A stretch of DNA of 64,000 nucleotides, taken from positions 62,001 through 126,000 of the forward strand of contig NZ_JAQTMS010000005.1 of NCBI RefSeq assembly GCF_028714215.1, given 5' to 3'. Positions 34,671-62,622 of this stretch are shown here, piece by piece. The notes under the pieces are model-generated. The model was not told the DNA's origin, searched no databases, and was given only the letters and a program-made list of their open reading frames with translations. The translations under genes were made by a program, and so were the position numbers. Every line of letters starts with the position of its first letter. Within the stretch, counting starts at the first letter, position 1. The stretch is from Rhodoferax sp. Lineage in GTDB: Bacteria; Pseudomonadota; Gammaproteobacteria; Burkholderiales; Burkholderiaceae_C.

Positions 34671-35743
34671 ACCCCGCTTTCCAAGCCGTGATCGTGGCGA
34701 ACGATGCCGAGCGCCGGGATCTTTTCCTAGGCGCTGCGGCGCGCCTGGGCACCGCTGTCCAGAACGTCGAAAAGGACTTTTGGGTCTGCTGGACTCTGGA
34801 CGCGCTGTTCAACGGTCTCCCTGCTGGCGGCCCGCGACTGCTGTTCAAGGGCGGTACATCCCTGTCGAAGGCCTTCGGGCTCATCTCCCGGTTCTCCGAG
34901 GACATCGACATCACGGTCTTCCGCGATGACCTGGGCCAGCGTGTCGAGGCGGCGGACCTGGACGGGCTCAGCGGCAAAAAGCGCCGCGCCCGGCTCGACG
35001 CCATCCGCGATGCCTGCCAAGGTTACATCGCGGGGCCGCTGACCAGGCAGCTCGCCGAAATCGCGGCGACTGCGATTCCCGGAGGACGTTTCCGGCTGGA
35101 GGCAGATCCCGACGACAAGGACGGGCAAACCCTGCTGTTCTGGTATCCCGTGGTTACGGCTGACGAGGGCAATTACATCCGCGCCGCCGTCAAGATCGAG
35201 GCCGGCGCCAAATCCGCACCGGATCCCCACATTGCCGCAACAGTGACGCCCTACGTGGCGGCCGATTTGGCCGATCTGGACCTCGCAGTCCGCAATGTCA
35301 CGACGGTACAACCGGAACGAACCTTCTGGGACAAGGTCATCATCCTCCACGGTCTGCGCCAGTGGTACGAGCGTCGTAAGGAACTGCGGCACGAAGGCCA
35401 ACGGGTATCGCGTCACTACTACGACGTCCATCGGCTCGCGCAGGCTGACGGCGCGCAAGCGTGGCAAGCCGATCACAGTCTTGCCATCGACTGCGCCACG
35501 CACGCCAGACTGTTCTTCGGCAGCCCGGACTTGGGTCTGGACTCTGCGGCTGTGGGCACGTTTGCGCTAACCCCCGACGCCGCGATGCGCGACGCACTCG
35601 GGCGGGACTATGCAGCCATGTCGGGAATGATCTTCGGCGACATCCCGTCTCTTGACACGGTGCTGACCAGCGTTGCGGCCTTGCAGGACGCGATCAACGC
35701 CGCAGCCCCAAAGCCAGCCTCGCGCACAGGGAAACCCGCGTGA
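34667..35743 (+). CDS. AbiEii/AbiGii-type nucleotidyltransferase toxin
   Basis: A 358-residue protein with the nucleotidyltransferase signature FKGGTSLSK (Gly62-Gly63-Thr64-Ser65) followed by SEDIDI with the two catalytic aspartates Asp79 and Asp81. A downstream conserved ERTFWDKVIILHGL segment is typical of AbiEii. Such toxins transfer nucleotides to cellular targets (tRNA for relatives of this family) and stop growth on phage infection. The start is a TTG at 34667 with GGGGAGG four bases upstream, coupled to the antitoxin stop. The low-efficiency start codon may help keep the toxin below the antitoxin. Confidence 0.87.
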   Translation: MNPAFQAVIVANDAERRDLFLGAAARLGTAVQNVEKDFWVCWTLDALFNGLPAGGPRLLFKGGTSLSKAFGLISRFSEDIDITVFRDDLGQRVEAADLDGLSGKKRRARLDAIRDACQGYIAGPLTRQLAEIAATAIPGGRFRLEADPDDKDGQTLLFWYPVVTADEGNYIRAAVKIEAGAKSAPDPHIAATVTPYVAADLADLDLAVRNVTTVQPERTFWDKVIILHGLRQWYERRKELRHEGQRVSRHYYDVHRLAQADGAQAWQADHSLAIDCATHARLFFGSPDLGLDSAAVGTFALTPDAAMRDALGRDYAAMSGMIFGDIPSLDTVLTSVAALQDAINAAAPKPASRTGKPA

Positions 35744-36651
35744 TCGACTATTTCAGCGACCGCCAAAACGGGCCTGTTGCCCGTACCGAAGAAGTGATCA
35801 CTCCGGTGGTGTGGGCTGCCATCGTCGCCACGGTACGGGGCTTGATCAACAGCGGTGCATTCGGTCAGCGCTTCCCCGAGCGCTGCGCCGACGGGCAGGC
35901 CGTTTGTGGATGTGATGAAGCCGCCTTTGGCGCTGCGGTCGTCGGAGAAATTCGCGGACTGGAATGGCCGCTACAAACCACCAAAAAAGTGGAAGAGAGC
36001 TTCATCTCTCAATGGGAGCCATTCGCGCCAGACACACTCCTCATCCTGGACTTCGTGGCATACGTGCACGCCATGGCGGCCAAGCCCATCCAGCGTGAAT
36101 ATCACAATTTTCTGAGGCACCATCACTTGGCGTTTGACCAAGAAGCCGGTCAAGAAGAATTTCGTGACACGATAAACCGTTACTTTGGACGCAACGGCCT
36201 TGCGTTCGAGATGCAGCCGACAGGTCGCATCGTTCGCGTGCTGCCACCTGTCATCGATCTGGCCCTCAGGCGCACGACGTTCAACACCGGCGAGCGCACC
36301 CTGGATCTCCTGCTCGAAGAGGCGCGAACCAAATTTTCAGACCCCAACTCGCTGATCAGACGGGAAGCGCTGGAACGACTGTGGGATGGCTGGGAACGCC
36401 TCAAATCTTTGGCAGATCCGTCGAACAAGAAAAACTCGGTCCACCTTATTCTGAGTGCAGTGACAGCGGAACCTGCCCTGTACGCACGGCTGGACGCTGA
36501 GGCGCATCAATTGACCTCAATAGGCAACGATCACCTCATTCGGCACTACGAAGTAAATCAGAAGCCCGTGATCGACGCAGATCATGTTGATTACCTTTTC
36601 CATCGCCTGTTCGCAATGATCCAGTTGGTGCTCAGAAAGAAGGCGGCGTGA
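35740..36651 (+). CDS. Unrecognised protein coupled to the AbiE pair, HEPN/AbiJ-like C-terminus possible
   Basis: A 303-residue soluble protein starting with a GTG at 35740 that overlaps the toxin stop (GTGA), so it belongs to the AbiE operon. I do not recognise the N-terminal half. The C-terminal third is helical and contains RREALERLWDGWERLK and IRHYEVNQKPVIDADHVDYL. To me this resembles the C-terminal part of AbiJ-like abortive-infection proteins, where an Arg/His pair lies in an HEPN-like fold. If so it could be an RNase effector. This is a weak resemblance. No signal peptide or membrane segment is seen. Confidence 0.6.
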   Translation: MIDYFSDRQNGPVARTEEVITPVVWAAIVATVRGLINSGAFGQRFPERCADGQAVCGCDEAAFGAAVVGEIRGLEWPLQTTKKVEESFISQWEPFAPDTLLILDFVAYVHAMAAKPIQREYHNFLRHHHLAFDQEAGQEEFRDTINRYFGRNGLAFEMQPTGRIVRVLPPVIDLALRRTTFNTGERTLDLLLEEARTKFSDPNSLIRREALERLWDGWERLKSLADPSNKKNSVHLILSAVTAEPALYARLDAEAHQLTSIGNDHLIRHYEVNQKPVIDADHVDYLFHRLFAMIQLVLRKKAA

Positions 36652-36892
36652 CCATGCCCCACAAAAATCTCGCGCCGACTCTCAGTAAACCAATTTTCCT
36701 TCTTGACTCCGCAAGGGGCGCAACGCTCCTTTTGCAAGACGAGTCTGCGTATATATCGGATCAAGTACCCTGGATGCTCTAATACCATGAATAGACATAA
36801 ATTCGCTCACCTCTTGGCTGTGCCATCAGGGCAGTAAATATGAATCGCCAGACGAATAGGGTTGGCAGAACTAAAGAAACGCTGGGGACGCA
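36652..36892. other. Gap before the phosphorothioation-type operon
   Basis: These 241 bases are relatively AT-rich and contain no credible gene. The promoter of the six-gene operon must be here or further upstream; I see no unambiguous -35/-10 pair. The region ends in CTGGGGACGCA before the ATG. Confidence 0.5.
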
Positions 36893-37801
36893 ATGAAGAG
36901 CACCGTGGATCGATTTTCAGGACATGAATCCTTTGTGTGCCGTTACGGCTGGTTACCCAAGGTCTACAGCGCGGTAAAGGCAGACGGCACTTTGCTGCGC
37001 AACGAAGAAAGCGCAATGAATGCGTTGGGCATCGGGCGGAACATGGTCAAGTCGCTTCAGTTCTGGGCGGAAGCTACGGGCGTGCTGCAGGCGGCCGATG
37101 GCGGCGGTCACGAACCAGGGCCGGTCGGGATCAAGCTGTTCGGGGGAACAGAGGCTTGGGATCCGTATCTGGAATCGCTGGAATCCTTGTGGCTGATTCA
37201 CTGGCAGCTATGCACCGAAGGGGGTCTTGCGGCATGGAACGAGGTCTTCGGTGAAGGAAAACTCATCCGGTTCGAGCGCAAGCAACTTGTCGCCGCTCTG
37301 GGTCGCCGTGGCGAGGGCGCAGCCCGCCCGCTGGCTGCCAGCACGCTGGAGCAGCATTCTTCGATCTTCATCCAGTCCTACTACCAGGAAGAACGTGGCG
37401 GCGACGATACGTCCTGGTCGCCGTTGCAAGACCTGGGACTGCTGCGGGCGGTCAAGGGCGAGGATGGGAGGACCATCTTCAACACTGAGCCGCGCGCGCC
37501 GATGGGGCTCTCCCACCGCGTGTTCGCGATGGCGCTGATCGATTTCCTGACCGCCGAGGGCCAGGGTGAACTATCGGTCGATTTCGTCCGCCTGCTCAAA
37601 GGAGCCTACAGCCCGGGGGTCGTGTTCCGTCTAGATGAACAGCAGCTCCGGGTATTCGTCGAAGCCCTTTGCGCGGGACCGCTGAAAGGTGCGCTCCGAT
37701 TCGTCGATACGGCCGACACCCAAAGCCTTGTACTGAACTTGAAAAAACTGGATTCGCAGTATCAGCTGCGGCGGGCAGAGGAGGCCTATGCACATGCCTA
37801 A
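36893..37801 (+). CDS. sspB: DUF4007 protein, SspB-like DNA phosphorothioation component
   Basis: A 302-residue protein beginning with the DUF4007 hallmark FSGHESFVCRYGWLPK, followed by LGIGRNMVKSLQFWAEATG and RRAPMG-like downstream parts. DUF4007 proteins are the SspB subunits of single-strand phosphorothioation (SspABCD) systems, reported to nick DNA at the site to be modified. The gene is first in a six-gene operon and overlaps sspC by 14 bases. The PP-loop protein two genes downstream supports the assignment. Family membership is recognised by eye; the nicking function is family knowledge and not shown by an obvious nuclease motif here. No sspA precedes it, so sulfur would have to come from a housekeeping cysteine desulfurase such as IscS. 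Confidence 0.8.
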   Translation: MKSTVDRFSGHESFVCRYGWLPKVYSAVKADGTLLRNEESAMNALGIGRNMVKSLQFWAEATGVLQAADGGGHEPGPVGIKLFGGTEAWDPYLESLESLWLIHWQLCTEGGLAAWNEVFGEGKLIRFERKQLVAALGRRGEGAARPLAASTLEQHSSIFIQSYYQEERGGDDTSWSPLQDLGLLRAVKGEDGRTIFNTEPRAPMGLSHRVFAMALIDFLTAEGQGELSVDFVRLLKGAYSPGVVFRLDEQQLRVFVEALCAGPLKGALRFVDTADTQSLVLNLKKLDSQYQLRRAEEAYAHA

Positions 37802-40800
37802 TCGTATTTTGCAAAGCATTGAACTGGGCGGCGGCCACACGCGATCCATCGCACTAGACAGAGATCTAAACGACGAATCTGCTGTCAAGAAATATTTGTT
37901 GACGCCAGCGGCGGCGAGCGCGTTGAAGCAGATCGGTCAAGGCCTGGCCAACCAACACGCGCAAAGAGCCTGGAAAATCGTCGGTCCCTATGGCAGCGGT
38001 AAGTCCGCGCTGGGTGTCATGCTGGCCCAACTGCTGAGCGGGCGGAAATCGCATCCTGCAGCATCATTGGCGATCATCAAAAGTGCGCCTCAGCTCGTGC
38101 CGTTGTTCAAGACGGCCAACCGTTTCCCATTGGCGATCGTCGGGGCGCGCGTGTCCATTGGCGCCGCTCTGGCGCAAGCCATCGGTCAGGCACTGGGTCA
38201 TCTCGGCAAAGGCAAAGCGGTGTCGGCGCTAAAGAAGCAATTGGATACCGAAGCGTTGATCTACAGGGGCATGCCGGTGAACTCTGTTGCCGGTAGTCTC
38301 GCAGCTGATTTTGCGCAAGCCATGGTTGCGGAGGGGTTCGATGGTGTCCTGCTGCTCATCGATGAGGTCGGCAAGTTTGTCGAGCATGCGGCACTGCACC
38401 CGGAAACAGGCGACCTGATCGCGCTGCAACAGATTGCCGAGCAAGCCTGCCAGCCGGAAGACGCCAAATTGGCCGTCGTGGCCATGTTGCACCAGCATTT
38501 CGCAAGCTACGCCGCAGGTGTGGGCCGGTCGCTTGGCGACGAGTGGCAAAAAGTGGCGTCGCGGTTTGATGAAATTCCGTTCGACGAACCCGTCGAGCGT
38601 TACGCACATTTCGCCGCTCACGCCATCGGGGTGAAGTCCGCAATCCGCACGAACCGCGAGGTCGTTTGTGAAGCGCAGGCGCTGTACGCATCGGCCAAGA
38701 AGCTGGGCGCCTTGAGATCCTTGACCGCAGCCGACCATGCACTGTTCGAGCGTGCGGAGGTTCTCTATCCCTTGCATCCTTTCAGCATCGCAGCACTCGC
38801 AGTGGTGGCGAAACGCTACGGCCAAAGCGAACGGTCATTCCATGCGTTCCTGCGCGGGAACGAGCCACTCGGGCTGCGTGACTTTGCGGATCGCCATGAC
38901 GTCGACTCTGCTGTCTGGTATCGGTTGCCCGAGGTATTTGACTTCCTCGCCAGTGGCTATGGACTCCGTTTCAGGGACCTCAGCGCTGAGCGTCGATGGG
39001 CCTTCGCTCTGGCTTCGATGGAACGGCAAACCTTCGATCCCGAAGTCGTCAGAGTTCTCAAGAGCATCGCTGTGCTTGAGCTTGTTTCCGCAGGTCTGGG
39101 CGTCCCGATTACGCCAGAGTCGGTTGCATTCGCGCTCGGCGATGTGACCAAGGCCTCGGTATCCAAGCACTGCGACGGCCTCGTGGAGCAGGGCTTGCTT
39201 GTACGTCGGCGCAACAGGGCGGAATATGCCTTCGCGGTGTCGGATGCGGTCAATATTGAGGCCGTTTACGAGAAAGCAGCAAGAAGCGGTGAGGACGAAC
39301 TTGTCATCTCCGGTGTTTCGCATGCGCTGTCACAGCGACTCATCGTTGCGAACAAGCATTACGACCGATCCGGCACGATTCGGACCGTCGGTGTGCTTGT
39401 CGGCTCGCCTGCCCAATGGCCCAAACCGCCGGTATTCAAGTCCGATGAGGCTCGCCCAGACGGTTGGATCAAATTGGTGCTGGTCATGGAAGGCTCAAGC
39501 GACGAGGCTCTGACGCTTCAACGGCTAAAAGAGGAGGCCGACACTCTCAGCATCTGCGGAAGTTTGTCACTCACCCCGGAGAGTCGCGCTGCGCTTGCCG
39601 AATACTCCATCTGGCTGGCGGTGCAGCGGGAAGTCACCAGCAAACGTCTGGACCCATGGACTAGCCAGTATGTGGCCGGTCGTCTGCACGACGTTTCCGA
39701 AAAAGTCAGCCTGTTGGTATTGCGTCAGCTAATGCCCGTGCCAGGAAATCCTGGGCCAGAGTATTGGTACGGCGGGCAGCACATCCCCAACAGTCGAAAC
39801 ATGAACGCCAACCAGCTCGCCTCCTGGCTGTTCGATTCGGTGTACAACCAAACGCCGACAGTCGTCAATGAGCTCATCAACAAGGAAAGGCCGCCTTCGG
39901 CCATTGTGCTGGCACGCCAGCGGATGTTCGAATTCATATTGAGCGGGGACAAGGCGGGTCAACTGTGCGGAGCTAGCGAGTACCCCCCCGAACGACTTAT
40001 TCACAACACGCTGCTTCGCCAGACAGGAATCTGGCACGAGGAGGCCGGTCGCTGGAGCCTGGCTGAGCCCACTGCCGATGCGGCAATAGATATCTCCAAA
40101 GTCTGGGCTGCGATCTCACAGGAGCTACGGTCTTCAAGGGCGCCAACTCTTGCAGACATCCTGGCGGTGCTGGCAGCGCCGCCATTGGGCGTAAGAGCAG
40201 GACCAGCTGGCATCTGGATCGTCTTGTATTTGATGATTCACCGCAGTCGGTGCGCGGCCTTCGAACGAGGGTCGCTGATTCTCGAATTGACCAATGAACA
40301 CCTGCAGCGGATGTACAAGAATCCGCAGACGTTTGAATTGCGTGAACTGTCCAGCGGAGCGGACAGCAGGAAACTTCTGCTTGAGTATCAGGCAACCTTC
40401 ACTGCGATCGGCTGTGCGGTTGGTGGGGAGCTGACATACCTGGAGCTGGCGCGGAGCTTGTATCGCTGGCACGCGCGACTTCCGGAATTCAGTGTGCAAA
40501 CCAGCCGTGTTGGCAAGGATGCCAGCCTTGTGCGGTCAGTTCTGAAGAAGGCCCAGGACCCAATCAAGCTGCTCACTGCGAGCCTCCCGGAAACCTATGC
40601 CCAGGCCAACGTGAAAGTGCCCTTCGGTGAATGGTTGACTAGCACGCTTTCAGATCTGGGGATGGCGCATCGCCGATTGCAGGAAGCCATGTCTGCTGAG
40701 GTCAGCAAGGCATTCGCCATCGCAGGCCCTCTGAGCCGTGTGCGAAACCAGCTCCAAGCCGAATGTGCAGGCACCGCTTCGGACCTGGCGGACATCAAGC

Positions 40801-41249
40801 TCAAAAGCTTCATCCTGCGGTGCACAGACCTGTCTCTCACCGATGAGAAATGGTTGGACTCCATTGGTAGCCTCTTGGTCCAAAGGCCACTCGACGCATG
40901 GGCCGACGAGACCATCGGAAAGTTTGCGCAGGAGATCACCGAATCGTGCGGCCGGTACAAACGGTGGATGCGCATGGTCACCGAGCGTGGATTGGCACCT
41001 CGAGCTTCCGAGCGCTTTGTCGGCTTGACGCTGACCATGCCAGGTGGCCAAGAATCGACTCTGTTCGTGGCAACATCAGACGAGTCCAGCGCGGTGGCGC
41101 GCAGCATCATGGATCTGATCGCGAAAGAGACAAAGGGAAATGTGCAACTCGCGGCGTCGGCACTTGCGCAAGCACTCCTGGAGCTTCAAGCCCCCGTCAC
41201 CCATGCCTCAGAAGAGGAGAGTTTCAATGGCAACCGAAAAGCGAGTTAG
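37788..41249 (+). CDS. sspC: Large P-loop ATPase, SspC-like
   Basis: An 1153-residue protein. Walker A is GPYGSGKS at residues 66-73 (Lys72) and Walker B is GVLLLIDEVGKF, with Asp192-Glu193. A helical region and a winged-helix-like segment (ITPESVAFALGDVTKASVSK) follow near residues 445-465. The long C-terminal half is soluble and has no motif I recognise. Its place between the DUF4007 gene and the PP-loop gene is that of SspC, the ATPase of the SspBCD modification complex, probably powering DNA remodelling during sulfur insertion. The start is the ATG at 37788, or at 37794, within the end of sspB. The end overlaps sspD by 23 bases. A distant likeness to DISARM or BREX ATPases cannot be excluded. 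Confidence 0.72.
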   Translation: MHMPNRILQSIELGGGHTRSIALDRDLNDESAVKKYLLTPAAASALKQIGQGLANQHAQRAWKIVGPYGSGKSALGVMLAQLLSGRKSHPAASLAIIKSAPQLVPLFKTANRFPLAIVGARVSIGAALAQAIGQALGHLGKGKAVSALKKQLDTEALIYRGMPVNSVAGSLAADFAQAMVAEGFDGVLLLIDEVGKFVEHAALHPETGDLIALQQIAEQACQPEDAKLAVVAMLHQHFASYAAGVGRSLGDEWQKVASRFDEIPFDEPVERYAHFAAHAIGVKSAIRTNREVVCEAQALYASAKKLGALRSLTAADHALFERAEVLYPLHPFSIAALAVVAKRYGQSERSFHAFLRGNEPLGLRDFADRHDVDSAVWYRLPEVFDFLASGYGLRFRDLSAERRWAFALASMERQTFDPEVVRVLKSIAVLELVSAGLGVPITPESVAFALGDVTKASVSKHCDGLVEQGLLVRRRNRAEYAFAVSDAVNIEAVYEKAARSGEDELVISGVSHALSQRLIVANKHYDRSGTIRTVGVLVGSPAQWPKPPVFKSDEARPDGWIKLVLVMEGSSDEALTLQRLKEEADTLSICGSLSLTPESRAALAEYSIWLAVQREVTSKRLDPWTSQYVAGRLHDVSEKVSLLVLRQLMPVPGNPGPEYWYGGQHIPNSRNMNANQLASWLFDSVYNQTPTVVNELINKERPPSAIVLARQRMFEFILSGDKAGQLCGASEYPPERLIHNTLLRQTGIWHEEAGRWSLAEPTADAAIDISKVWAAISQELRSSRAPTLADILAVLAAPPLGVRAGPAGIWIVLYLMIHRSRCAAFERGSLILELTNEHLQRMYKNPQTFELRELSSGADSRKLLLEYQATFTAIGCAVGGELTYLELARSLYRWHARLPEFSVQTSRVGKDASLVRSVLKKAQDPIKLLTASLPETYAQANVKVPFGEWLTSTLSDLGMAHRRLQEAMSAEVSKAFAIAGPLSRVRNQLQAECAGTASDLADIKLKSFILRCTDLSLTDEKWLDSIGSLLVQRPLDAWADETIGKFAQEITESCGRYKRWMRMVTERGLAPRASERFVGLTLTMPGGQESTLFVATSDESSAVARSIMDLIAKETKGNVQLAASALAQALLELQAPVTHASEEESFNGNRKAS

Positions 41250-42054
41250 GCATATTCTGAGCCTCTCAGGGGGCAAAGACAGCGCGGCCTTGGCGATCTA
41301 CATGCGAGACCGAGTGCCAGAGATGGAGTACATCTTCAGCGACACGCGCAAGGAGCTACCAGAAACCTACGAATACCTCGAGCGAATCGCTAGTTATCTG
41401 GGTAAGCCCGTAACTCGCTTGAACGCCGACGTGGGTTTTGACCATTGGTATGAGATGTACGGAGGCATGATTCCCTCCAACCATCGGCGCTGGTGCACGC
41501 GCGCCTTGAAGCTCAAGCCCTTTGAACAACATTGCGGCGACAGCGAGGTGATTAACTACGTGGGCCTTCGTGCAGACGAGGAGCGCAGCGGTTACATCAG
41601 CACCAAGCCGAACATCAAAGCGGTCTACCCATTCAAGGAAGACGGGCTCATCCTGCGCGACATTGAAGAAATCCTGCAGACATCCGGCGTCGGGATGCCG
41701 CCATACACGAAATGGGGACGCACCAGGTCAGGCTGCTATTTCTGTTTCTATCAGCAGAAGATCGAATGGGTGCGGCTCAGGGAAACTCACCCTGATCTGT
41801 ACGACAAGGCGAAGGCGTACGAAAAGCCATACGAACAGACGGGAAACTTTTTCACCTGGAGTCAGGGCGAAAGTCTCGTCGAAATGGAACAACCTGCACG
41901 CGTCGAACAGATCAAACGAGAGCACATCATTCGCATTGAACGAAAGGCGGCAAGAAAAGAGAACGCAACTCTTGCTGAGGTTTTTGCGGAAGCAGACCGT
42001 GGCGAAGAGCCGGAAGATGATGACGATCAGGGCTGTTTAGTCTGTCAACTTTGA
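41227..42054 (+). CDS. sspD: PAPS-reductase-like PP-loop sulfotransfer enzyme, SspD/DndC-like
   Basis: A 275-residue protein. The PP-loop ATP-pyrophosphatase motif LSGGKDSAA (residues 13-21) is followed by YIFSDTRKELPETYEYLE, as in DndC and PAPS reductases. Cys90 (RRWCTRALK) and the Cys170/Cys173 pair (GCYFCFY) are candidates for iron-sulfur ligands, and there is a further Cys270/Cys273 pair at the very C-terminus after an acidic stretch (EEPEDDDDQ). In phosphorothioation this enzyme adenylates the DNA phosphate so that sulfur replaces a non-bridging oxygen. The ATG at 41227 is preceded by AGAGGAGA. It is followed after 14 bases by the dual-GHKL gene in the same operon. A plain sulfate-assimilation role is unlikely in this context. 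Confidence 0.87.
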   Translation: MATEKRVRHILSLSGGKDSAALAIYMRDRVPEMEYIFSDTRKELPETYEYLERIASYLGKPVTRLNADVGFDHWYEMYGGMIPSNHRRWCTRALKLKPFEQHCGDSEVINYVGLRADEERSGYISTKPNIKAVYPFKEDGLILRDIEEILQTSGVGMPPYTKWGRTRSGCYFCFYQQKIEWVRLRETHPDLYDKAKAYEKPYEQTGNFFTWSQGESLVEMEQPARVEQIKREHIIRIERKAARKENATLAEVFAEADRGEEPEDDDDQGCLVCQL

Positions 42055-42068
42055 AGGAATGACGCGGA

Positions 42069-44450
42069 ATGTCCTTCTATATCACGGCGCGAACGATTCT
42101 TCACCTCGGTTCTGAACTCATCTCTTCAGACGCGGTAGCAATCTACGAGCTGGTGAAGAATGCGATTGACGCCGGCTCGAAAACCGGTGTGGAGGTGGCG
42201 TTTGAGGTCGTGATTCGCCAGTCCGACTATGCATCGGCAATGGCACTTCTTGACCCTGACGATCCTTCTGAATCCACTCTCGAGGACGTCCAGCTAGCGC
42301 TGCTGTCAAAGGTAAACGGCGAAGCTCCAGACGAGCTGAAAGATAAGTTCATCGCAGCGGTGAAGGGTGCACGATCCAAGGCGAGTCTTACTACCCGGGC
42401 AGAAGCCGCATATCGCGATTGCAACCGAATCATCGTCTCGGATACGGGGCATGGCATGTCCAGAGACGATTTGGAGAATATTTACCTCACCATCGGAACA
42501 ACGCATCGAACTAACGCGGTCAGAAAAGCAATTGAAGAGGGTTCCAAGAAGCCTCCATACCTCGGCGAAAAGGGGGTGGGCCGACTCTCAGTGATGCGCT
42601 TAGGCTGGAAGGTTCACGTTGAGACTGGCACGGTCGATGACACGGAAAGCAACATTCTTGAGATTGACTGGCGGAGATTTGAGAAGGCATACGATCAGCC
42701 TGCGTCGAGCGTAAAGATTGAGCCGGAGCAAGGCGATCAAAAACCAAGAGGGGAGTCCTTTACTCGTATTGTGATCTCGGACTTGAGATCGTCATGGTCC
42801 CTGAGTCGGCTGACAGAAATAGCCAAAGGCCAGATAGCGAAGATGACGGATCCCTTCTCCTGGACGGAGAAGCGTCGATTCCAGATTCGCCTTTCGTTCA
42901 ACGGAGTGCCCGTGCAGCAGGTGCGTGCTGTAGCGAAGGACCTCTTGGATGACGCCCACGGCAAGTGCAACGGAACCTACTCGCTCGAGAAGGGTAGCCC
43001 TGTACTTCGTGCCACGATCGAGTCTCGGCTTTATGCAGGAGATAGCAGGGAGTATGTTTTCGACCTGGTTGACCTGATGGGGATGGCGGGCCTCCGCGAG
43101 TCGGGCCAGCCGACTTCAGTGCTGAAATCATTGGGCCCGTTTGCCTTTGAATTTTATTGGTTCAACCGACAGAGGCTGCGAGCAATTCCGAATGTTGGCG
43201 ACCGAGAAACGGTGCGACAGCTCGTCAAAGCTTGGGCTGGAATCTGCCTGTTTCGTGATGGCTACAGGGTCCTCCCTTACGGCGACGAAGGCGATGATTG
43301 GTTGCGTCTCGACCTAGAGGCTCTTGCGGCCAGCGGATACAAGCTAAACACGAAGCAAATCATCGGACGCGTAAGCATAGGTAGGGTTTCAAATCCTCGA
43401 CTCCTCGATCAGACGAATCGCCAAGGACTGATCGAGTGTCCGGAAAAGGAGGTGCTGATCGAGCTACTTCGGAAGTTGATCGCAGGGTGGTGGCACGACT
43501 ACCTCAATGAGGCAAACCGGGTTCAGAAACGGCAAGACACTTTGCAGTTTGATTCGCTGAAAGAGTCCTCAGAGGTTGAGAACCTTGAGCAACGTGCAAC
43601 TCAGTCGATCAAGGAGATTCAGACTCACTATACCGGGGAGGCCAGGTTACTGCGTGAGGTAAAGGATGCCTTCCTGGAGATCAAGGACGCACACCAGCGT
43701 GCCGTCGAGCGGATTGGAGCAATCGAGGAGGAGAAGGAGCGACTAACCCAACTGGCTGGTGTTGGGTTGATGATTGAAGTGATCGCTCATGAGCTCACTA
43801 GGGCGACTGAGTTGACCCAGGCCACCTTAAAGGATTTAAGCCGGAAGAATATCGGTGATGAGGCGTCCTCAGCGTTAGAAGTCCTTGGTAAGCAAATACG
43901 TGTCATTCAGAAAAGACTGCAGACGCTGGAGCCGCTTTCGATTACCGCCCGCCAAAGGCGGAGCCATATTCGGCTGGCTGGGATTATTGGGTACATCCTT
44001 GAGTCGCATGTGGCGCAGTTTGAGAGGCACCGGATTGACGCCAAGCTCTCCAAGCAATCCGAAAATGACACGGTCGGGTTTGTGGTTGAAGGGCACATTG
44101 TTCAGATTCTCGAGAATTTGATTGACAACTCGGTGTACTGGCTGGACCTGCAACGCAAAGAGCATCCTGCATTCAAACCGGAGATCATCCTGCGAGTGTT
44201 GAGTGATCCCCCAAGAATCAGGTACTTTGACAATGGCCCGGGAATTCCGAAGAGCAGGGTCGAATCAGTATTTGAGCCATTTTTCTCGACAAAGGGCGGG
44301 TCGAAATCGCGCCGTCAAGGTTTGGGCTTGTACATCGCCCGACAGAACGCCGAATTTTTGGGCGGAACATTGAATTTGGTCGATTTGGGAAAGGTCCATG
44401 AGAACCGATACAACACATTCGAGCTCGAGTTGAAGGGGAGCGCAGAATGA
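42069..44450 (+). CDS. Dual GHKL ATPase with histidine-kinase-like module (candidate PT-restriction signalling protein)
   Basis: A 793-residue soluble protein with two complete GHKL ATP-binding folds. The first is N-terminal and Hsp90/MORC-like: N-box ELVKNAIDA (Glu27, Asn31, Asp34), a long insertion, DTGHGM (Asp125-Met130) and GEKGVGRLS (166-174). The second is kinase-like: H-box IEVIAHELTRA with His574, N-box ILENLIDNS (Glu682, Asn683, Asn687), DNGPG (721-725) and GLGLYIARQNA (751-761), preceded by a coiled coil (about 505-560). There is no membrane segment or PAS domain. It lies 14 bases after sspD and overlaps the next gene by four bases. By position it could be the F component of an SspFGH-type restriction arm, but I do not recall that family's domains well enough to assign it. 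Autophosphorylation on His574 is an inference. Confidence 0.78.
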   Translation: MSFYITARTILHLGSELISSDAVAIYELVKNAIDAGSKTGVEVAFEVVIRQSDYASAMALLDPDDPSESTLEDVQLALLSKVNGEAPDELKDKFIAAVKGARSKASLTTRAEAAYRDCNRIIVSDTGHGMSRDDLENIYLTIGTTHRTNAVRKAIEEGSKKPPYLGEKGVGRLSVMRLGWKVHVETGTVDDTESNILEIDWRRFEKAYDQPASSVKIEPEQGDQKPRGESFTRIVISDLRSSWSLSRLTEIAKGQIAKMTDPFSWTEKRRFQIRLSFNGVPVQQVRAVAKDLLDDAHGKCNGTYSLEKGSPVLRATIESRLYAGDSREYVFDLVDLMGMAGLRESGQPTSVLKSLGPFAFEFYWFNRQRLRAIPNVGDRETVRQLVKAWAGICLFRDGYRVLPYGDEGDDWLRLDLEALAASGYKLNTKQIIGRVSIGRVSNPRLLDQTNRQGLIECPEKEVLIELLRKLIAGWWHDYLNEANRVQKRQDTLQFDSLKESSEVENLEQRATQSIKEIQTHYTGEARLLREVKDAFLEIKDAHQRAVERIGAIEEEKERLTQLAGVGLMIEVIAHELTRATELTQATLKDLSRKNIGDEASSALEVLGKQIRVIQKRLQTLEPLSITARQRRSHIRLAGIIGYILESHVAQFERHRIDAKLSKQSENDTVGFVVEGHIVQILENLIDNSVYWLDLQRKEHPAFKPEIILRVLSDPPRIRYFDNGPGIPKSRVESVFEPFFSTKGGSKSRRQGLGLYIARQNAEFLGGTLNLVDLGKVHENRYNTFELELKGSAE

Positions 44451-46441
44451 CCTTGATGGATTCCTTTGCGGCGGGAGGGATCAATTGCGCCCACATCATT
44501 GATGACGCATTCGACGATCTACCGGTAACGGCCCTCATTGAGGAAGAGGCGCAGGGGTTTCTTGAGGCCCTTGATGACACTGACTTTGATTCCATTGGCG
44601 ACGTCTTGGGAATACAGGTTCCGAGTGAAGATCAAGTACGGGCTGCCCTTCAAGAACTCTCCACCTATCAGACCCTCTTCAGGCAGCGTGAGAGACTCCC
44701 GCCAACCTGCGCGCCGTTGTTCGCCAACTTCATTACCTCACAGGAATCGAAACTTGCCCAAATTCAACCGTTGATCACGCTTCTTGAGGCACAGGGTGTG
44801 GCGTGTCACAAGTTTGGTGCAGCGTACGAGGTGGTCGGGAGTCCTGTTCCGCAACTATTCTTCGTCGATCTGCGTTTGCAAGAGAATACGGCGTTGGTCG
44901 GCCCGGAAGACGCGGTCAAGGTCTACCAGAAGTTGACCGCGGTGCACGCCGGCTGCAAACCGTTTGTCTTTCTGATGTCGTCACTCAGCACGCCTCTTGC
45001 CGCGCGACGAGAGGATTTCCGACGGACCGCGGATCTGTTTCAGTCTGAGTTCGAAGACATCGACAAGAAGATATTTGAAGACGAAACAGAGCTGGCGCGG
45101 GTGTTGGGTAGGTACGCAAAGGTGATGCCTCAGCTTGCTCAGATGCGCGGACATATGGAGGCGGTCCAAGGCGCGGTTGCAGTGGCAACGACGAATGTCA
45201 TGAGGGAACTGCGGGCACTTGACCTTGCAGATTATTTTGTGCTGTATCACAACACGACCTCTGTCGAAAAGATAGGACTAGGTGGCTATGTTGTCGAACT
45301 ACTGCTGGAGTTCCTGGCGCATGAGGTCGAAGGCACTGAACAGGTGTGGGAGCTTTCAAAAGCGCTAGACAATCTCGACATCAAGACGCTACCGCGATCC
45401 CGATTCGGGCTTTCCTTCGCCGCTGCGAACATTTATTCGGCGAGCATGCTCCACGCGAGAAAGAGGTTGTTCGCTGAGGAAGCCCTAGGAACTGGCCCAG
45501 CACAAGGCTATTTCTATCTTGGGGACATCTTCTTCGAAGCCAAGGAATTGAACGAAGCCCTACCCACACGGGCGCTTGCCGTAATTACGCCAGCTTGCGA
45601 CTTGGTTCGTCCGGACCGCCTCAAAGATCGCAGCGTGTTGTTGTGTGAAGGTTCGGTGCGAGCTGTGAACCCCGGAACGATTCCTTCGGGAACTGACTTT
45701 CTGCCGTCCGTCGTCATGCATCATCCAAAAGATGAGAAGAAGCAGCTGCTGATAGACTGGTCGAAAAAGAAAGTGCATGTCTGGGGTGACGAAGAGAGGG
45801 CCAAGTTCGCGGATCCCGAAAAATGTCACTACGTGAGGGTAAGTCGACTTCGCCCTTTATATGCCATCCAGCTCCAACATGCGGTAACTGCCGACTTGAG
45901 TCGGATCGGGACACAGCGTCCTCCGAGCCTGCTTATGCCGCACGGATTGCAATGTTTGATTTCTGATGGAGAGAAGTGGATTGAACTTGACACTGAGGAC
46001 GCAACCGATCCCACGGTTGCGGCTTTGTCAGATGGCGAGCGAGGCGACAAGAAGCACACGCTATTTGTCGTGGCCGATCCGGTCGTTCAACGGGTGTTGC
46101 GGAAGCTCAAGGTTTGGCTTGCAGCGAATCCTGGCGCCAAAAGCCACGCAGTTCTGACCAAGTTTCTGAACCATCCCGACATCGAGCAGACACTCATGTA
46201 TTTTGATCAGAGGGTGCCCCTGAAGCCTCCGAAGAGCGGAGTGCTTGACGTGTCGGCCTATCCGCTCAGCGCGAGCCAGGATTTTCCTGGAGATGAAGCA
46301 ATGGTTGTGGCGATCGTGCGCCCGCGCACCGCTTCACCGTATGTAGAGATCGCTGAAGGTCACCAAACTACCCAGCAGCAGCGTTCTCGAATCGTGCTCC
46401 GCTTGGTCGAAGTCAATCTCGGGAGCGGAGGAGAAACATGA
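44447..46441 (+). CDS. Divergent response-regulator receiver fused to an unknown domain
   Basis: A 664-residue soluble protein. The first 200 residues look like a stretched receiver fold: an acidic pair in AHIIDDAFDDLP (Asp19-Asp20), a strand ending LFFVDLRL with Asp141 where the phosphoacceptor would be, and VFLMSS (Ser178-Ser179) where the switch Thr/Ser lies. Between the acidic pair and Asp141 is a helical insertion of about 60 residues beyond the normal spacing. The C-terminal 450 residues are unknown to me; a segment VITPACDLVRPDR resembles TxxCD motifs of uncharacterised proteins. The gene is coupled by four-base overlaps both to the histidine-kinase-like gene before it and to the P-loop ATPase after it. 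This suggests a kinase-receiver pair inside the defence operon. Confidence 0.7.
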   Translation: MTLMDSFAAGGINCAHIIDDAFDDLPVTALIEEEAQGFLEALDDTDFDSIGDVLGIQVPSEDQVRAALQELSTYQTLFRQRERLPPTCAPLFANFITSQESKLAQIQPLITLLEAQGVACHKFGAAYEVVGSPVPQLFFVDLRLQENTALVGPEDAVKVYQKLTAVHAGCKPFVFLMSSLSTPLAARREDFRRTADLFQSEFEDIDKKIFEDETELARVLGRYAKVMPQLAQMRGHMEAVQGAVAVATTNVMRELRALDLADYFVLYHNTTSVEKIGLGGYVVELLLEFLAHEVEGTEQVWELSKALDNLDIKTLPRSRFGLSFAAANIYSASMLHARKRLFAEEALGTGPAQGYFYLGDIFFEAKELNEALPTRALAVITPACDLVRPDRLKDRSVLLCEGSVRAVNPGTIPSGTDFLPSVVMHHPKDEKKQLLIDWSKKKVHVWGDEERAKFADPEKCHYVRVSRLRPLYAIQLQHAVTADLSRIGTQRPPSLLMPHGLQCLISDGEKWIELDTEDATDPTVAALSDGERGDKKHTLFVVADPVVQRVLRKLKVWLAANPGAKSHAVLTKFLNHPDIEQTLMYFDQRVPLKPPKSGVLDVSAYPLSASQDFPGDEAMVVAIVRPRTASPYVEIAEGHQTTQQQRSRIVLRLVEVNLGSGGET

Positions 46442-47940
46442 CCGACGAGGGAGAGCGCTGGATAAGGTTTCTGCGGAAGTACGGGCCACTCCCGCGAAAC
46501 GAGAACATGTACGACGAGCACATTCGGCGGTCGGCGCGTCGGCTCGGGGTGCTCCCGATTACATTCAAGCATCCGCTGGAAGAGAGCGTGCTTTCCGTCT
46601 TCAACGGGACGTCGGCCCCCAAGCCCGTCATCCTCACGGGAACAGCTGGAGACGGCAAGAGCCACCTCTGTGGGAAAATCTGGCAACGCCTCGGCGGAGA
46701 TGCGTCGGCGTGGGCATCAGACGATATATATTTTCGGCTAGAAACTGCGATCGGCGAGCGTTCCTTCACGTTGCACGTGATCCGCGATCTGACTGCGCTG
46801 CCCGATCAAGACGAGCAGGGGCGATATGTCAGCAAGGCAGCTTTACTTCAGCAGCTGAGCGAAACGGTCTTTGACCCGTCGTCAGACACACTATTCCTCT
46901 TAGCAGCCAATGACGGGCAGTTGATCGAGACTTGGCGGAAGCTGGGGCCGACCGGCAACGCACTGCGGGCACGCGAGCTCTTTGAGGCCCGACTGATGGG
47001 TGATGCCGACCCAGAGCCGACCGCTCACCTCCACCTTTTCAATCTGAGCGTCATCTCAAGTGCGACTATTCTTGAGCTCGCCTTGGATTCGCTTCTGGCC
47101 CATCCGGGGTGGCCGGCGTGTATTTCTGAAGCCAAAGTTGATGGATTCTTTGGCTCACTTTGTCCTATTCGCCACAACTACGAATTGCTTCAAACGCCTC
47201 TCGTCAAATCGCGATTGGCGGCACTGTTTCGGCTTTGCGACTTCAATGAACTGCATACGCCCATCCGACGGGTGCTGATGTTGCTTGCCAACGGACTCCT
47301 GGGGCATCCGCTCGCGAAGGATCGACTGCTGGTGCCCAGCGACGTATCGCGCATCATCACGAATGGGACAAGTTATCAGGCCAGCCTGTACAGCAATCTG
47401 TTTGGAGCCAATTTGGGCGGCACCAAGCGCGAGTCGCTGGAGATCTTCGAGTACCTCGGACGATTCGGTATCGGCCAGGAAACCACGAATCGTGTCGACA
47501 ACATCCTGATTTTTGGCGCTGAGGATGACAACCTCATGCCGTACTACGACGTGCTCATCAGCGCTGACAAGTTCTATGGCGGAACTGATCGCTACGGCGC
47601 CGCCCGGCGTGCCTATGTCGAAACACCCGAGGCCACAGTGGGGGATCGCCATGTGTTCCTGGAAATGCTGATTGAACAACGTCGTGGACTATTCTTCAAG
47701 ATTCCGGAGGCTTGGGCTGATGAGCTAAGACTTTGGAGTCTCACTGTGTTCGCAGGCGCAGGCGGGTATCTGGCTGATATTGCGAGGCCCTTATTTGCGG
47801 GCGAGCGCGTGCCCCGTCATGTCGTTGCCAGTCTGGTCAATGGGCTCAACAGAATCTTCACGGGCGTTCTCGTGTCGTCCGATCGCGAACTGCTACTGGC
47901 AAATTTCTCAATGAACATTTGGGCAACAGCAGACGGTTGA
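46438..47940 (+). CDS. P-loop ATPase closing the phosphorothioation-type operon
   Basis: A 500-residue soluble protein with Walker A GTAGDGKS at residues 68-75, preceded by KPVILT. A candidate Walker B-like strand (TLFLLAANDGQ) lies near residue 155, so it is probably an AAA/STAND-type ATPase. The C-terminal half is not recognised. The ATG at 46438 overlaps the receiver protein's stop (ATGA). As last gene of the operon it could be the effector or the DNA-translocating partner of the two preceding proteins, the H position of an SspFGH-like arm. No nuclease motif is visible to me. A Rho-independent terminator after it is not obvious. Confidence 0.72.
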   Translation: MTDEGERWIRFLRKYGPLPRNENMYDEHIRRSARRLGVLPITFKHPLEESVLSVFNGTSAPKPVILTGTAGDGKSHLCGKIWQRLGGDASAWASDDIYFRLETAIGERSFTLHVIRDLTALPDQDEQGRYVSKAALLQQLSETVFDPSSDTLFLLAANDGQLIETWRKLGPTGNALRARELFEARLMGDADPEPTAHLHLFNLSVISSATILELALDSLLAHPGWPACISEAKVDGFFGSLCPIRHNYELLQTPLVKSRLAALFRLCDFNELHTPIRRVLMLLANGLLGHPLAKDRLLVPSDVSRIITNGTSYQASLYSNLFGANLGGTKRESLEIFEYLGRFGIGQETTNRVDNILIFGAEDDNLMPYYDVLISADKFYGGTDRYGAARRAYVETPEATVGDRHVFLEMLIEQRRGLFFKIPEAWADELRLWSLTVFAGAGGYLADIARPLFAGERVPRHVVASLVNGLNRIFTGVLVSSDRELLLANFSMNIWATADG

Positions 47941-47983
47941 AACTCCAAATCTGGCGGGTACCCTGAGTTCTCAAGAGGTCCTT

Positions 47984-48286
47984 ATGCGTAAAACCATTTT
48001 TGTATTCTTCATCCTGCTTGGAGCGGCAGTCGGCGCATTTACCGCGCTCAATGAGGGCATTGGTCTCAAACTCCTTTCTGGCGGCATCGGGTCCCTGGTG
48101 GGTGCCATCGTTGGCGGGGCCATCGCGGGAATCGGTCGAAGGCATTCTCGGCACCCGGCTCACTTCGACAGCGACGGGTTGCTGGACGAACAAGCCAACA
48201 ACTACTGGCTGGATCGAGGGCGGCTGACCGCAGCGCCAGGCTTGCCTCAGGCTGATGACCTTGACCCATTCAGCCACGAGCCGTGA
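47984..48286 (+). CDS. Small Gly-rich membrane protein at the convergence with traG
   Basis: A 100-residue protein. An N-terminal hydrophobic segment (KTIFVFFILLGAAVGAF) and a glycine-rich second segment (GGIGSLVGAIVGGAIAGIG) are followed by a polar tail of about 50 residues. AGAGGTCCTT-type purine-rich sequence precedes the ATG. It lies 43 bases after the defence operon and its stop abuts the traG stop, so it is convergent with the transfer operon. Function unknown. The two Gly-zipper-like helices could form a small membrane pore or an anchor; it may belong to the conjugation region or be a membrane effector of the defence operon. Confidence 0.65.
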   Translation: MRKTIFVFFILLGAAVGAFTALNEGIGLKLLSGGIGSLVGAIVGGAIAGIGRRHSRHPAHFDSDGLLDEQANNYWLDRGRLTAAPGLPQADDLDPFSHEP

Positions 48287-51064
48287 CTACCTTTCACGCT
48301 TGAGCAGGTTCTTCGCCGCCTCCTTGGCCGCGTCCAGCGTCACGTCGGCATCACCAGCTAACTGCTTTTCAGTCTGCACGAACAGCGATTTTCGGGACTT
48401 GAGTGTGCCGTCGGGAGTTTCGACGATCTCGGCCTTCGCATCAAATTTGTTGACTGCGGTTGCCGCCTGCCCATGAAGATGATCGTGAGCCTGCTGAACT
48501 TCCGCCCTGACCGGCGATGGCTGTGTCTTATGCGGCTTGCCCGTCGTGTTGCTGGTCTTCGGTCCGGCCACTTGCAATTCGTTGCCCTGTCTGGCGCTGT
48601 CTACAACGCGTTCAAAGACGCTTTCAGAGCGTTCTTGATCGTACGCGTCACGGATGGCTCCGAACGAGGAAGGCAAGGCAGTCCCATCCGACAACACGCG
48701 CGTGGGACGAAGCCCCTGCCGCGCCAATTCCGATTCCATCATCGTGTGCGCCGCCGCACTGGTACCGCCATACTGCTCTGCGTAGCGCATGAACATGTCC
48801 AGGTTGTGCGGGTCCTGGGCGATGTCGATGGACAAGGTCTCTCCACGCTCGTGCGCCGCGCTCATGCGTTCGGTCAGCCCTTGGTGCTGGGCAAACACTG
48901 CTTCAGCGCGTTCCGCCTGGGCGGTCGCGGTGGCCAGGCGTGACGATATGTCGCGTCCCTCCTTGCTGTCGGAGGCGATCACGTTCATTACACTGCTGTC
49001 CCGAGAGACCCGGTCGCCGAACTGCTTGAACGCTGCAAGCTGCTCGGTGGTCATGGTGTTGAGAACCCTCTGTTCGTCACTCAGGATGCCCGACTGGTAG
49101 TTCTTCCCGGCGCTGCCCTGGATTTTCGCGCTGGCGGCGGGTGTTGAGAGGCCCAGGGAGCCACTGGCACCGAAGGCGATGTGGGCGACCTGGGATTGCG
49201 ACAGTCCTGTGCGCTGCGACACGCTCTGGGCAATCTGATCCAGGTTGTTGAGGCTTTCGCCCAGTTGCTCAAAACTGCTGGATGCCGTGCCCGTGCTGTT
49301 GCGCGTTGAGCGCAGCTTGCTGACACCGCGCGTGAAGGCTTCCGTGAGCGTGGCAGAGCGCTGTTGCCCAGCCGAAACCGCATCGCTGCGCGCCATTTCC
49401 GCCTGGTGGCTGGCTTCGGTCACATCCTGTTCCGACACCCGCATCGACACCACGCGCGACGCAAACCCCTGGTTGCGCAACAGGCTGGCCGCCGCGCGCC
49501 CCGTCAGGGCATTGGAGGATAAGGTGTTCCCGGTCAAGTCATTCTGTAGGCTCCCCATGAAAGCCGAGGTGCGGTTCGGTGCCAATTGCATCTGGTCCAT
49601 GCCCACATTGCCCAGGCTCACGTTGCCAGCGGCCGCACTGCTGGTCGCGCCGGACAGCGTACCTTGCAGACCAGACAGACCACCCGCAAGTGCCGTGCCC
49701 ATGTTCTGCATCCCTTTGAGTGCTGCCCAGGCGATGAAGGGCACGCTGATGGCCAGGTAGCCCACGACCGCTTCTCCCGAAATCGCGCGCGAATAGATGG
49801 TCGAAGCCGTCTGGAGCGCCAGCGCCTTGGCCCCTGTCCCCAGATCGGCTGCCGCTGCCAGGTCATAGGCCGCGTAAATCGATGCCATGTAGTTCAGGAT
49901 GGCGTACAGCGGCGGCCAGAGTTGGATCCAGATCAGGATGGCGGCGTAGCCCTTGAACGCCAGCATGGTCTCCCGGCCGCTGGTGAGCAGGAGCAGCAGC
50001 ACGAACAAGGGAAAGAGGGCGTAGGTCACGGCTTCGATCACATTGCGGAATACCGGCAGCGCCTGCTCAGCCACCTTACCGTAATTGAGCCAGGATGCAT
50101 TCTGCTGAGCGACCGCTTGGGCTCGGCCCACCGCCAGTACCATGGCCGCCGGATCGTTGACCTTCTGGCCGACGATCTTCCCGGTGTCTTCGATGGCGTT
50201 GAGCACCGCGTTCTGCCGGATGATGTCAGCCGCTGTGGCGGCAGCGTTGGCAATGCTGTTCTTGAGGTAGGCCTGCTGGACTTGGCCCGAGATGGCCGCA
50301 GCGGCCGCAGCCCCAGGCAGCGTCGGATTAAGTTGAAATGCCAGTCGCCCCTGAATCCGCGTGATCTGCGCGGGCAGGCGACCATTGAGGTTCAAATAGA
50401 CGGTCGGGCAGGTATCGATGCTGATGCCGCCGGCACCCGTCACCGTGCTGAAACGCGCCGGATTGGGCGAAGCCATCAGCGGCCAGACATCGCCGGAACT
50501 GGAGAACGTCGCTGGATCCAGCGTGCCATCGACCAGATCGTAGGTCGTGCAGTTGTGAATGAAGTTGATTAGGTCGGTCCTGAATCCTGGATCCTGAAAC
50601 ACCACATTGCCGGTTTCGCGGATCAGCCGGTTGCCGAACATAAGACCGTTCTGTTGGTAGCTCAGCTCCGCGGGAAGAGCGCCAGGCCCTGGAATCACCT
50701 GGAAGGCGGTTTCAAACAGACCGGTCAAGGTATGGCCGATGGTGCTGGTGATGCTTCCCAGCGCTGCCACGCCAAAAGGTACGTTGTCCACAACCTTGAC
50801 CGCCGATCCGCCGGTCTTATCGACGATGCCGACCGTTACCTTGGGCACGATCAGCACAGAAAACACCAGCACCACCGAGCCCAGCCACTTCCAGCCCTGC
50901 AGCTTCTCGGGTGCGAAGGCATAGGCGATCAGGGCGGAAACGAAGCCGCAGAAGGCCACCGCCGCCACGGCAGACAGGTAGTCGTTGGATGCATGGATGG
51001 CGGCTGCGGCGTTGAAGACACCGAACAGGCTGTCCGAGTTCTGGTAGGCATAGATTTCCCACAT
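48287..51064 (-). CDS. traG: Conjugative transfer protein TraG (F-type)
   Basis: A 925-residue inner-membrane protein. The N-terminal half has several membrane segments (around residues 30-90 and 340-450) and belongs to the TraG N-terminal family, beginning MWEIYAYQNSDSLFGVFNAAAA. The C-terminal half is a long soluble helical region rich in Gln/Ser/Ala. In F-type systems TraG is needed for pilus assembly and for mating-pair stabilisation through TraN, and it can be the target of entry exclusion. It is the last gene of the transfer operon, 20 bases after traH. The start at 51064 fits the family. Confidence 0.9.
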   Translation of the reverse strand: MWEIYAYQNSDSLFGVFNAAAAIHASNDYLSAVAAVAFCGFVSALIAYAFAPEKLQGWKWLGSVVLVFSVLIVPKVTVGIVDKTGGSAVKVVDNVPFGVAALGSITSTIGHTLTGLFETAFQVIPGPGALPAELSYQQNGLMFGNRLIRETGNVVFQDPGFRTDLINFIHNCTTYDLVDGTLDPATFSSSGDVWPLMASPNPARFSTVTGAGGISIDTCPTVYLNLNGRLPAQITRIQGRLAFQLNPTLPGAAAAAAISGQVQQAYLKNSIANAAATAADIIRQNAVLNAIEDTGKIVGQKVNDPAAMVLAVGRAQAVAQQNASWLNYGKVAEQALPVFRNVIEAVTYALFPLFVLLLLLTSGRETMLAFKGYAAILIWIQLWPPLYAILNYMASIYAAYDLAAAADLGTGAKALALQTASTIYSRAISGEAVVGYLAISVPFIAWAALKGMQNMGTALAGGLSGLQGTLSGATSSAAAGNVSLGNVGMDQMQLAPNRTSAFMGSLQNDLTGNTLSSNALTGRAAASLLRNQGFASRVVSMRVSEQDVTEASHQAEMARSDAVSAGQQRSATLTEAFTRGVSKLRSTRNSTGTASSSFEQLGESLNNLDQIAQSVSQRTGLSQSQVAHIAFGASGSLGLSTPAASAKIQGSAGKNYQSGILSDEQRVLNTMTTEQLAAFKQFGDRVSRDSSVMNVIASDSKEGRDISSRLATATAQAERAEAVFAQHQGLTERMSAAHERGETLSIDIAQDPHNLDMFMRYAEQYGGTSAAAHTMMESELARQGLRPTRVLSDGTALPSSFGAIRDAYDQERSESVFERVVDSARQGNELQVAGPKTSNTTGKPHKTQPSPVRAEVQQAHDHLHGQAATAVNKFDAKAEIVETPDGTLKSRKSLFVQTEKQLAGDADVTLDAAKEAAKNLLKRER

Positions 51065-51084
51065 GGTGCTTCACCTGACTTGCG

Positions 51085-52536: not shown

Positions 52537-52545
52537 GAAGGACTC

Positions 52546-53433: not shown

Positions 53434-53443
53434 GGCGACTCAT

Positions 53444-56253: not shown

Positions 56254-56254
56254 G

Positions 56255-57007: not shown

Positions 57008-57026
57008 GAAGGGACGGATGAAAGGA

Positions 57027-59076: not shown

Positions 59077-59085
59077 GATTTCCCC

Positions 59086-62614: not shown

Positions 62615-62622
62615 GACGGGCC

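Follow-up and report, generated by a model that had tools for sequence, protein, structure and literature searches.

Ssp systems are described as a phosphorothioation module combined with one of two restriction arms, SspE or SspFGH, and the question raised here is what an Ssp operon does when its restriction arm is broken and two signalling genes follow the modification genes. The operon lies at positions 36893-47940 of a 64,000-nucleotide stretch of Rhodoferax sp. DNA (assembly GCF_028714215.1, contig NZ_JAQTMS010000005.1, positions 62,001 to 126,000 of the forward strand; hereafter the window), where an ORF check finds the interval filled by six co-directional open reading frames (ORFs). The first-pass annotation, made from the letters alone, took it for a cassette of the sspBCD-sspFGH type whose restriction arm works; the operon is real and unusual, but its second half was misread. 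We consider, at a probability of roughly 0.6, that an Ssp phosphorothioation module is joined here to a two-gene phosphorelay, a histidine kinase and its response regulator, that would gate defence or modification on behalf of any arm the locus happens to carry. Gating is proposed because the pair persists in ssp loci whose arms vary, SspE, SspFGH or others being present in some and absent from the rest; the observed part consists of the SspBCD genes, an IscS, an intact kinase and receiver, a broken SspFGH arm, and a linkage that is both tight and widespread.

The first three genes, on the forward strand like the rest, encode SspB, SspC and SspD, all full length by PADLOC profile and arranged as an operon. 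The sspB gene (36893-37801) specifies the DUF4007 DNA-binding/nicking subunit (PADLOC SspB, E 1.1e-117, profile positions 1-272 of 276; Pfam DUF4007, E 1.2e-57), and sspC (37788-41249) the P-loop ATPase (PADLOC SspC, E 0, positions 2-1096 of 1097, 1643.6 bits), on which the best BrxC model scores 271.6 bits, far under the SspC value. The product of sspD (41227-42054) is a PAPS-reductase-like ATP pyrophosphatase (PADLOC SspD, E 8e-119, positions 1-276 of 277); its start is placed at the ATG at 41227, preceded by GAGGAG, and the mechanical ORF opens at 41140. From gene one to gene six the junctions are an overlap of 14 bases, an overlap of 23, a gap of 14, and two overlaps of 4. No sspA is present among the nine proteins scanned across 33951-47940; a chromosomal IscS (L010) exceeds the TIGR02006 cut-off of 643 with a score of 715 and, judged from this match, can replace SspA as the putative sulfur source. 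The gene order SspB-SspC-SspD followed by three further genes, the operon without sspA and the available chromosomal cysteine desulfurase thus stand as first annotated. At three other loci (L017, L020 and L108) SspD is 86-88% identical to that of the window, with SspC at 45-57% and the regulator at 43-48%; in this comparison SspD is much better conserved than SspC and the regulator.

The fourth gene (42069-44450) encodes a histidine kinase with two GHKL ATPase domains (Pfam HATPase_c_3 and HATPase_c); an Hsp90/HgiDII-like GHKL domain forms the N-terminus and the kinase half, with H574, the C-terminus. The N-terminal domain matches the BbrUII/HgiDII model at E 4.4e-18 and 65 bits, below the model cut-off of 550, and a profile built from seven of the kinases matches LvrB and endoplasmin chains. 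Residues E27, N31, D34, D125, K168, H574, N683 and D721 are invariant in 60 of 60 sequences; the H, N, G1 and G2 boxes are likewise present in 60 of 60 kinases, plus 15 of 15 further ones. The fifth gene (44447-46441) encodes the response regulator, with a receiver at about residues 1-238 that carries a helical insert (32-115), a helical linker to residue 346, and a beta-rich output domain (360-655). The predicted fold of the receiver displays the acidic pocket, phospho-acceptor aspartate, S/T and K of such domains, and both window proteins retain their catalytic residues, which bears out the signalling/ATPase character first ascribed to the last genes. No Ssp model of PADLOC matches genes 4 and 5, and gene 5 is also without a Pfam match; no helix-turn-helix family is found in 64 regulators at E 0.05. 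A likeness of the output domain to solved chains was dismissed (best E 0.45), and the fold-search list for the regulator is dominated by the receiver and says nothing on the output domain. Kinase and regulator genes overlap by 4 bases in 41 of 78 pairs if the regulator is taken to begin at the in-frame start closest to the kinase stop. The regulator of a Devosia locus (L102, 16596-18503) is without the first aspartate of the receiver, and its profile match begins late; the start codon or frame is possibly misread.

The sixth gene (46438-47940) is a truncated sspF. Its product matches PADLOC SspF at E 5.9e-163 over positions 1-471 of 600, whereas the SspF of L005 spans all of positions 1-600, and it covers 497 of 615 positions in a second comparison. 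Identity to relatives is 41-49%, and the alignment runs to about residue 488 before giving way to a short tail without homology. When SspF of L005, L024 or L032 is aligned to the window by tblastn, each match stops at 47901, which places the last homologous base at about that position. A naturally short SspF was ruled out by this abrupt stop and by the unrelated tail, which enters the backbone of the surrounding element. By comparison with its relatives, the window sspF is missing about its last fifth and is best described as a remnant of an SspFGH arm. With one SspG query no match is found in the window's genome (116 contigs), and the control genome G133 matched at 52% identity; SspH, whose C-terminus is of FtsK/SpoIIIE type, has only a partial match (residues 1314-1673 of 1686), which falls on contig 53 in a frame of 819 residues read as a chromosomal FtsK. 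No SspE-type gene (DUF262/HNH) was seen in the first annotation, and the genome gives 0 matches to PDLC02792 (one of ten PADLOC SspE models), a model that does match in the genome of L036 and in 8 of 14 controls. Judged from these searches the SspFGH restriction arm of the operon is broken. Elsewhere, in a Rhizorhabdus wittichii plasmid (L007, 4585-7380), an IS5-family transposase gene splits sspF and the adjoining pair is intact.

That the six genes form a working sspBCD-sspFGH cassette, as first proposed, is hardly credible, even though gene 6 is SspF and the order sspB-C-D-kinase-regulator-F-G-H does occur in L032 (sspH being cut there by the end of the stretch). The pair adjoins sspF, sspG and sspH in L005, L032 and L099, so genes 4 and 5 cannot be sspG and sspH, and the assignment of genes 4-6 to SspF-G-H was ruled out; profile searches of the six proteins return SspB, SspC and SspD at full length, a shortened SspF, and no Ssp match for the fourth and fifth. 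Each of sspF, sspG and sspH is needed in Vibrio anguillarum FF-93, according to PMC8092258, and the window's genome has part of the first, with neither of the others found; the cassette reading could hold only if the assembly had lost sspG and sspH and the short SspF worked. Very unlikely, too, is that the whole operon is decaying and functionless since its SspFGH arm was lost. Such decay would fit the broken sspF, and in L017, the closest relative, sspF is likewise interrupted at 15850, near the same residue, by a repeat-ended sequence that resembles an insertion element (the contig stops 59 bases past the broken gene). The other five frames are nevertheless open and full length by profile, the catalytic residues of kinase and regulator are kept, and the kinase tree places the window in a clade of nine rows (SH-aLRT 100) in which intact sspFGH occurs in 0 of 9 within the DNA covered; in seven of these rows the same five genes are present and nothing of sspF, sspG or sspH is seen in that DNA. 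L019, a member of this clade, is covered for just 2.6 kb behind the regulator. No gene common to the whole clade follows the five genes in the gene lists or clusters; within the clade gyrB does so in L020 only, and outside it in L044 and L059.

The pair extends far beyond this clade. The locus set consists of the best 80 of 187 kinase relatives from a genome-contig scan with a kinase alignment, with up to 10 kb of flank per locus and often less; where no arm is reported, none was recognised by profiles or clusters in that DNA. A genome-contig scan with the regulator alone returned no relative. An ssp gene lies within about 10 kb in 77 of the 80 loci (sspB, C or D in 71, sspF, G or H in 26), and the regulator is also present in 77, a recognisable one being missing in the stretch covered for L031, L055 and L090. 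The kinase stands directly behind sspD in 33 loci and between sspC and sspD in 11. The set spans 13 named phyla, with one locus without a phylum; Ssp, hitherto described with an SspE or SspFGH arm, would thereby gain a third conserved module, and it is this kinase/regulator module that is new. Among plasmid records, all 15 that match the window kinase with an E value of 1e-40 or lower carry SspC at a distance of 0.3-12.1 kb, and seven match the regulator, six of which were inspected and in each of which the pair adjoins sspBCD or sspFGH genes (6/6). Within the family, 5 of 399 genomes, among them that of the window, match the kinase with an E value no higher than 1e-60, and all five have sspBCD. 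Related transposase-like genes, which by eye we take to be of the Tn7-like kind, stand upstream of the ssp loci in L018, L020, L059, L080 and L098, and gyrB follows the locus in L020, L044 and L059.

Several kinds of gene occur near the pair. In the 80 loci the neighbouring genes are of SspFGH type in 26, SspE in 4 and PbeA-like in 11 (six with PbeC); three further groups, labelled X36, X50 and PLD/MORC in this analysis, occur in 8, 4 and 8 loci. SspE or SspFGH genes stand alongside the pair in 30 of 80 loci, and none of these arms is recognised in 32 (31 if the lone MORC-like gene upstream in L022 is counted). Where sspBCD is complete and the flank sufficient, 15 of 34 loci are without an SspE, SspFGH, Pbe, X36, X50, PLD or MORC-like gene. 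PbeA without PbeC is found in five loci (L033, L064 and L069-L071), where the PbeA-like gene may be another helicase. X36 is a protein of about 980-1000 amino acids (aa) with an AAA/NB-ARC (STAND-like) ATPase and TPR (L026, L030, L033-L036, L039, L041); one of two scanned (L035) has an HNH domain, and two tested have no clear PADLOC model. X50, of about 810-840 aa, recurs beside the pair in L003, L046, L050, L059, L087 and L102, with a weak GHKL match in L059 and no PADLOC match in two tested. The PLD-like (about 313 aa) and GHKL/MORC-like (about 613 aa) genes, named by eye from motifs, occur together in L033, L052, L064, L069, L070, L071, L073 and L077.

Several comparisons suggest that the pair moves as a unit of its own. 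When the SspFGH label is mapped onto the 95-row kinase tree, it requires 25 changes against a shuffled mean of 28.3 (48 of 500 shuffles are as low), so that the restriction arm appears nearly random with respect to kinase phylogeny; SspH is found in 8 of 15 SspC plasmids with the kinase against 23 of 45 listed without it (Fisher p 1; 60 listed of 67 SspC records, near-identical records counted separately). Distances correlate strongly within modules (kinase-regulator r 0.91 over 88 loci, SspC-SspB 0.92, SspC-SspD 0.85, SspF-SspH 0.96), compared with 0.49 between kinase and SspC over 75 loci and 0.12 between kinase and SspH. An exchange can be followed in a sister element, a Rhodoferax metagenome-assembled genome (L095), which is 88.9% identical in DNA to the window over 33760-42054, a block that stops precisely with the sspD stop codon; the SspBCD proteins of L095 are 91-94% identical. 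Between the equivalents of 42054 and 47954 L095 has a different kinase (36% identical) and a different regulator, and lacks sspF; from 47954 to 55650, where its stretch ends, identity is again 85.9%. Because L095 keeps the element and SspBCD but has another kinase and regulator, the pair is read as a cassette swapped beside an unchanged SspBCD. Kinase and regulator would be parts of a signalling layer that is nearly independent of the restriction arm.

The same data also set limits to the gating reading, and the following points weigh against it. The congruence of kinase and SspC distances is only moderate, and in the 11 loci where kinase, SspC and SspH all occur the rank correlation is -0.03 for kinase-SspC; as this correlation vanishes while that of SspC-SspH stays (0.60), the pair behaves, on these distances, like an independent third module and not like a component of SspBCD. 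Nor is the pair obligatory in SspC-bearing plasmids, 52 of the 67 records with SspC being without the kinase at the threshold used, and the kinase query was built from ssp-linked loci, the locus set being the best-scoring part of its relatives. The kinase tree was built by a quick procedure and has several long branches, and contig ends limit its labels. The regulator output domain has no convincing Pfam or PDB profile match. A 19-residue stretch above hydropathy 1.6 occurs in 9 of 102 kinases, and some members of the family may thus be non-cytosolic. The gating model, lastly, is drawn from genes and sequence comparison.

An independent two-component defence system that merely shares islands with ssp would account for the poor kinase-SspC correlation and for the separability of pair and SspBCD seen in L095, yet it is quite unlikely in view of the ssp linkage, found in all 15 plasmid records and in 77 of 80 loci, and of the kinases inserted between sspC and sspD. 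Of the three loci without sspBCD/FGH genes, L026 has only PbeA, PbeC and X36 beside the pair, L056 is a contig of 4.4 kb, and the third is L089. The pair might instead be an ordinary transcriptional two-component system controlling ssp or sspE expression, a role speculated for Acinetobacter in PMC7464106 and suggested by the usual regulatory layout of a kinase plus a receiver protein. We consider this unlikely: 0 of 64 regulators match a helix-turn-helix family, and in L095 the kinase is swapped while homology over the upstream region and sspBCD is unbroken, an awkward finding for a transcriptional role because the new regulator would need a matching site in conserved upstream DNA.

The more serious alternative is that kinase and regulator themselves form the restriction or abortive arm: the kinase, on detecting unmodified DNA or phage DNA, would phosphorylate the regulator, and the C-terminal domain of the latter would harm phage or cell directly. 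The well-flanked loci with complete sspBCD and no known arm are consistent with such a role, as are the Acinetobacter baumannii locus L098, which has sspBCD and the pair and no SspE or SspFGH, and the lack of helix-turn-helix families in the regulators. A second effector would, however, be redundant in the 30 loci that have SspE or SspFGH genes, which is why gating is preferred over a direct effector role, and no catalytic signature is recognised in the output domain. With recognised arms so frequently absent, we give the direct effector reading a real chance, although one well short of even. A bolder proposal, similarly tentative, is that SspBCD and the pair make up a complete phosphorothioation-coupled defence in which the phosphorelay would read the modification state by way of the Hsp90-like ATPase and fire a receiver-controlled effector of a new type, SspE and SspFGH being optional extras; if true, such a self-contained system would explain Ssp loci without a known nuclease, including those of A. 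baumannii global clone 2.

Under the preferred gating model, the working unit would be the five genes sspB-C-D-kinase-regulator, with sspF the presumed stump of a lost SspFGH arm. SspB, SspC and SspD would mark the host DNA backbone as self with sulfur supplied by chromosomal IscS. The pair is hypothesized to act as a cytosolic phosphorelay that senses attack and gates the Ssp response: the Hsp90-like N-terminal ATPase of the kinase would monitor an internal state tied to DNA or to the Ssp machinery, and, as suggested by the invariant residues and the predicted fold, H574 of the kinase would be autophosphorylated and D141 of the regulator would receive the phosphate, after which the regulator C-terminal domain may turn a putative response on or off. 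The pair would in this way link DNA backbone modification to two-component signalling, and it is a concrete candidate for the missing partner of Ssp loci without a nuclease.

Among known systems, SspABCD-SspFGH of V. anguillarum FF-93 resembles the window in SspB, SspC, SspD, an IscS in place of SspA and an SspF-type gene in the operon; the window differs in its truncated sspF, in sspG and sspH not being found, and in the additional kinase and regulator, which are unmentioned for FF-93 in the part of the paper seen (PMC8092258). In Acinetobacter, sspBCD stands beside a kinase/regulator pair of the same family (L098), and two reports touch on such loci: PMC7464106 notes kinase genes adjoining SspE in 211 strains, and PMC12421847 raises the question of the missing partner for A. 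baumannii Ssp loci and calls them a possible new variant. In these portions the kinase receives one or two sentences each, with nothing on the regulator fold, the second ATPase domain or the spread across phyla. In L098 (16157-20411) the diverged pair is convergent with sspBCD and keeps its catalytic residues (DDDTK receiver), the kinase is 29% identical to that of the window, and the neighbours are transposition, housekeeping, small or hypothetical genes, without the SspE reported by PMC7464106 or SspFGH in the stretch. Type 4 BREX shares homologues of SspB/DUF4007, SspC/BrxC and PAPS reductase in the part of PMC12839542 consulted; its markers PglZ and BrxL are absent from the nine proteins scanned. 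The consulted portions of PMC10853773 and PMC12839542 make no mention of such a pair with Ssp, and no title or abstract opening describing it as a general Ssp module was found, in a search mostly outside the subscription literature.

Three other systems also invite comparison. The restriction enzymes of BbrUII/HgiDII type have an N-terminal GHKL ATPase that resembles that of the kinase, as the sub-cut-off match given above suggests; unlike them, the window protein has a histidine-kinase half in its C-terminal part. Detocs is a stand-alone, three-gene two-component anti-phage system with a receiver-effector protein, and would share with the pair the logic of a kinase signalling to a receiver-effector in phage defence; its effector is a different one, whereas the window pair is tied to ssp genes and its kinase carries an Hsp90-like ATPase. 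With PADLOC 2.0.0, a library that may contain no Detocs models, none of 64 regulators or 60 kinases matches DtcA, DtcB or DtcC. The SspABCD-SspE system, reportedly from Xiong 2020, has the modification genes in common with the window, in whose genome the one SspE model searched finds nothing.

The operon is carried by a conjugative element, as first annotated. A tRNA-Arg (33172-33248, forward strand; ARAGORN) marks the edge between chromosome and element, within a block 88.6% identical to L095, and is a likely candidate for the integration site; a 24-base stretch of its 3' end, searched at up to one mismatch, does not recur in the genome. Between it and the operon, defence neighbours within the same element, AbiEi, AbiEii and a PDC-S32/AbiJ_NTD4 gene, occupy 33951-36651 on the forward strand (PADLOC and Pfam). 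Behind the operon a conjugation gene backbone runs on the reverse strand over 47936-64000, supported by Pfam TraH at 51085-52536 (the part covered by profile scan) and by DNA homology to related elements, including a match to an annotated traF beyond TraH; the gene at 48287-51064 we take to be TraG. The boundary between cargo and backbone falls within 47936-47954 in three related elements, homology resuming from 47954 in L095, 47936 in L133 and 47952 in L134. L133, from a genome of the same family (G254), shares the backbone up to 47936 and has different adjoining cargo, so the cargo site may be a hot spot. The L133 cargo (1999-8683) includes a large ATPase that by eye resembles Wadjet JetC, and its TraG is 92% identical; the TraG copies of L116 (G300) and L117 (G295) are 73-74% identical, with one internal TAG each. 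In the chromosomal part of the window, at positions 1089-19730 and upstream of uvrD- and polA-type genes, a series of PAS, GAF and histidine-kinase proteins is encoded together with regulators of the GGDEF and HD-domain types.

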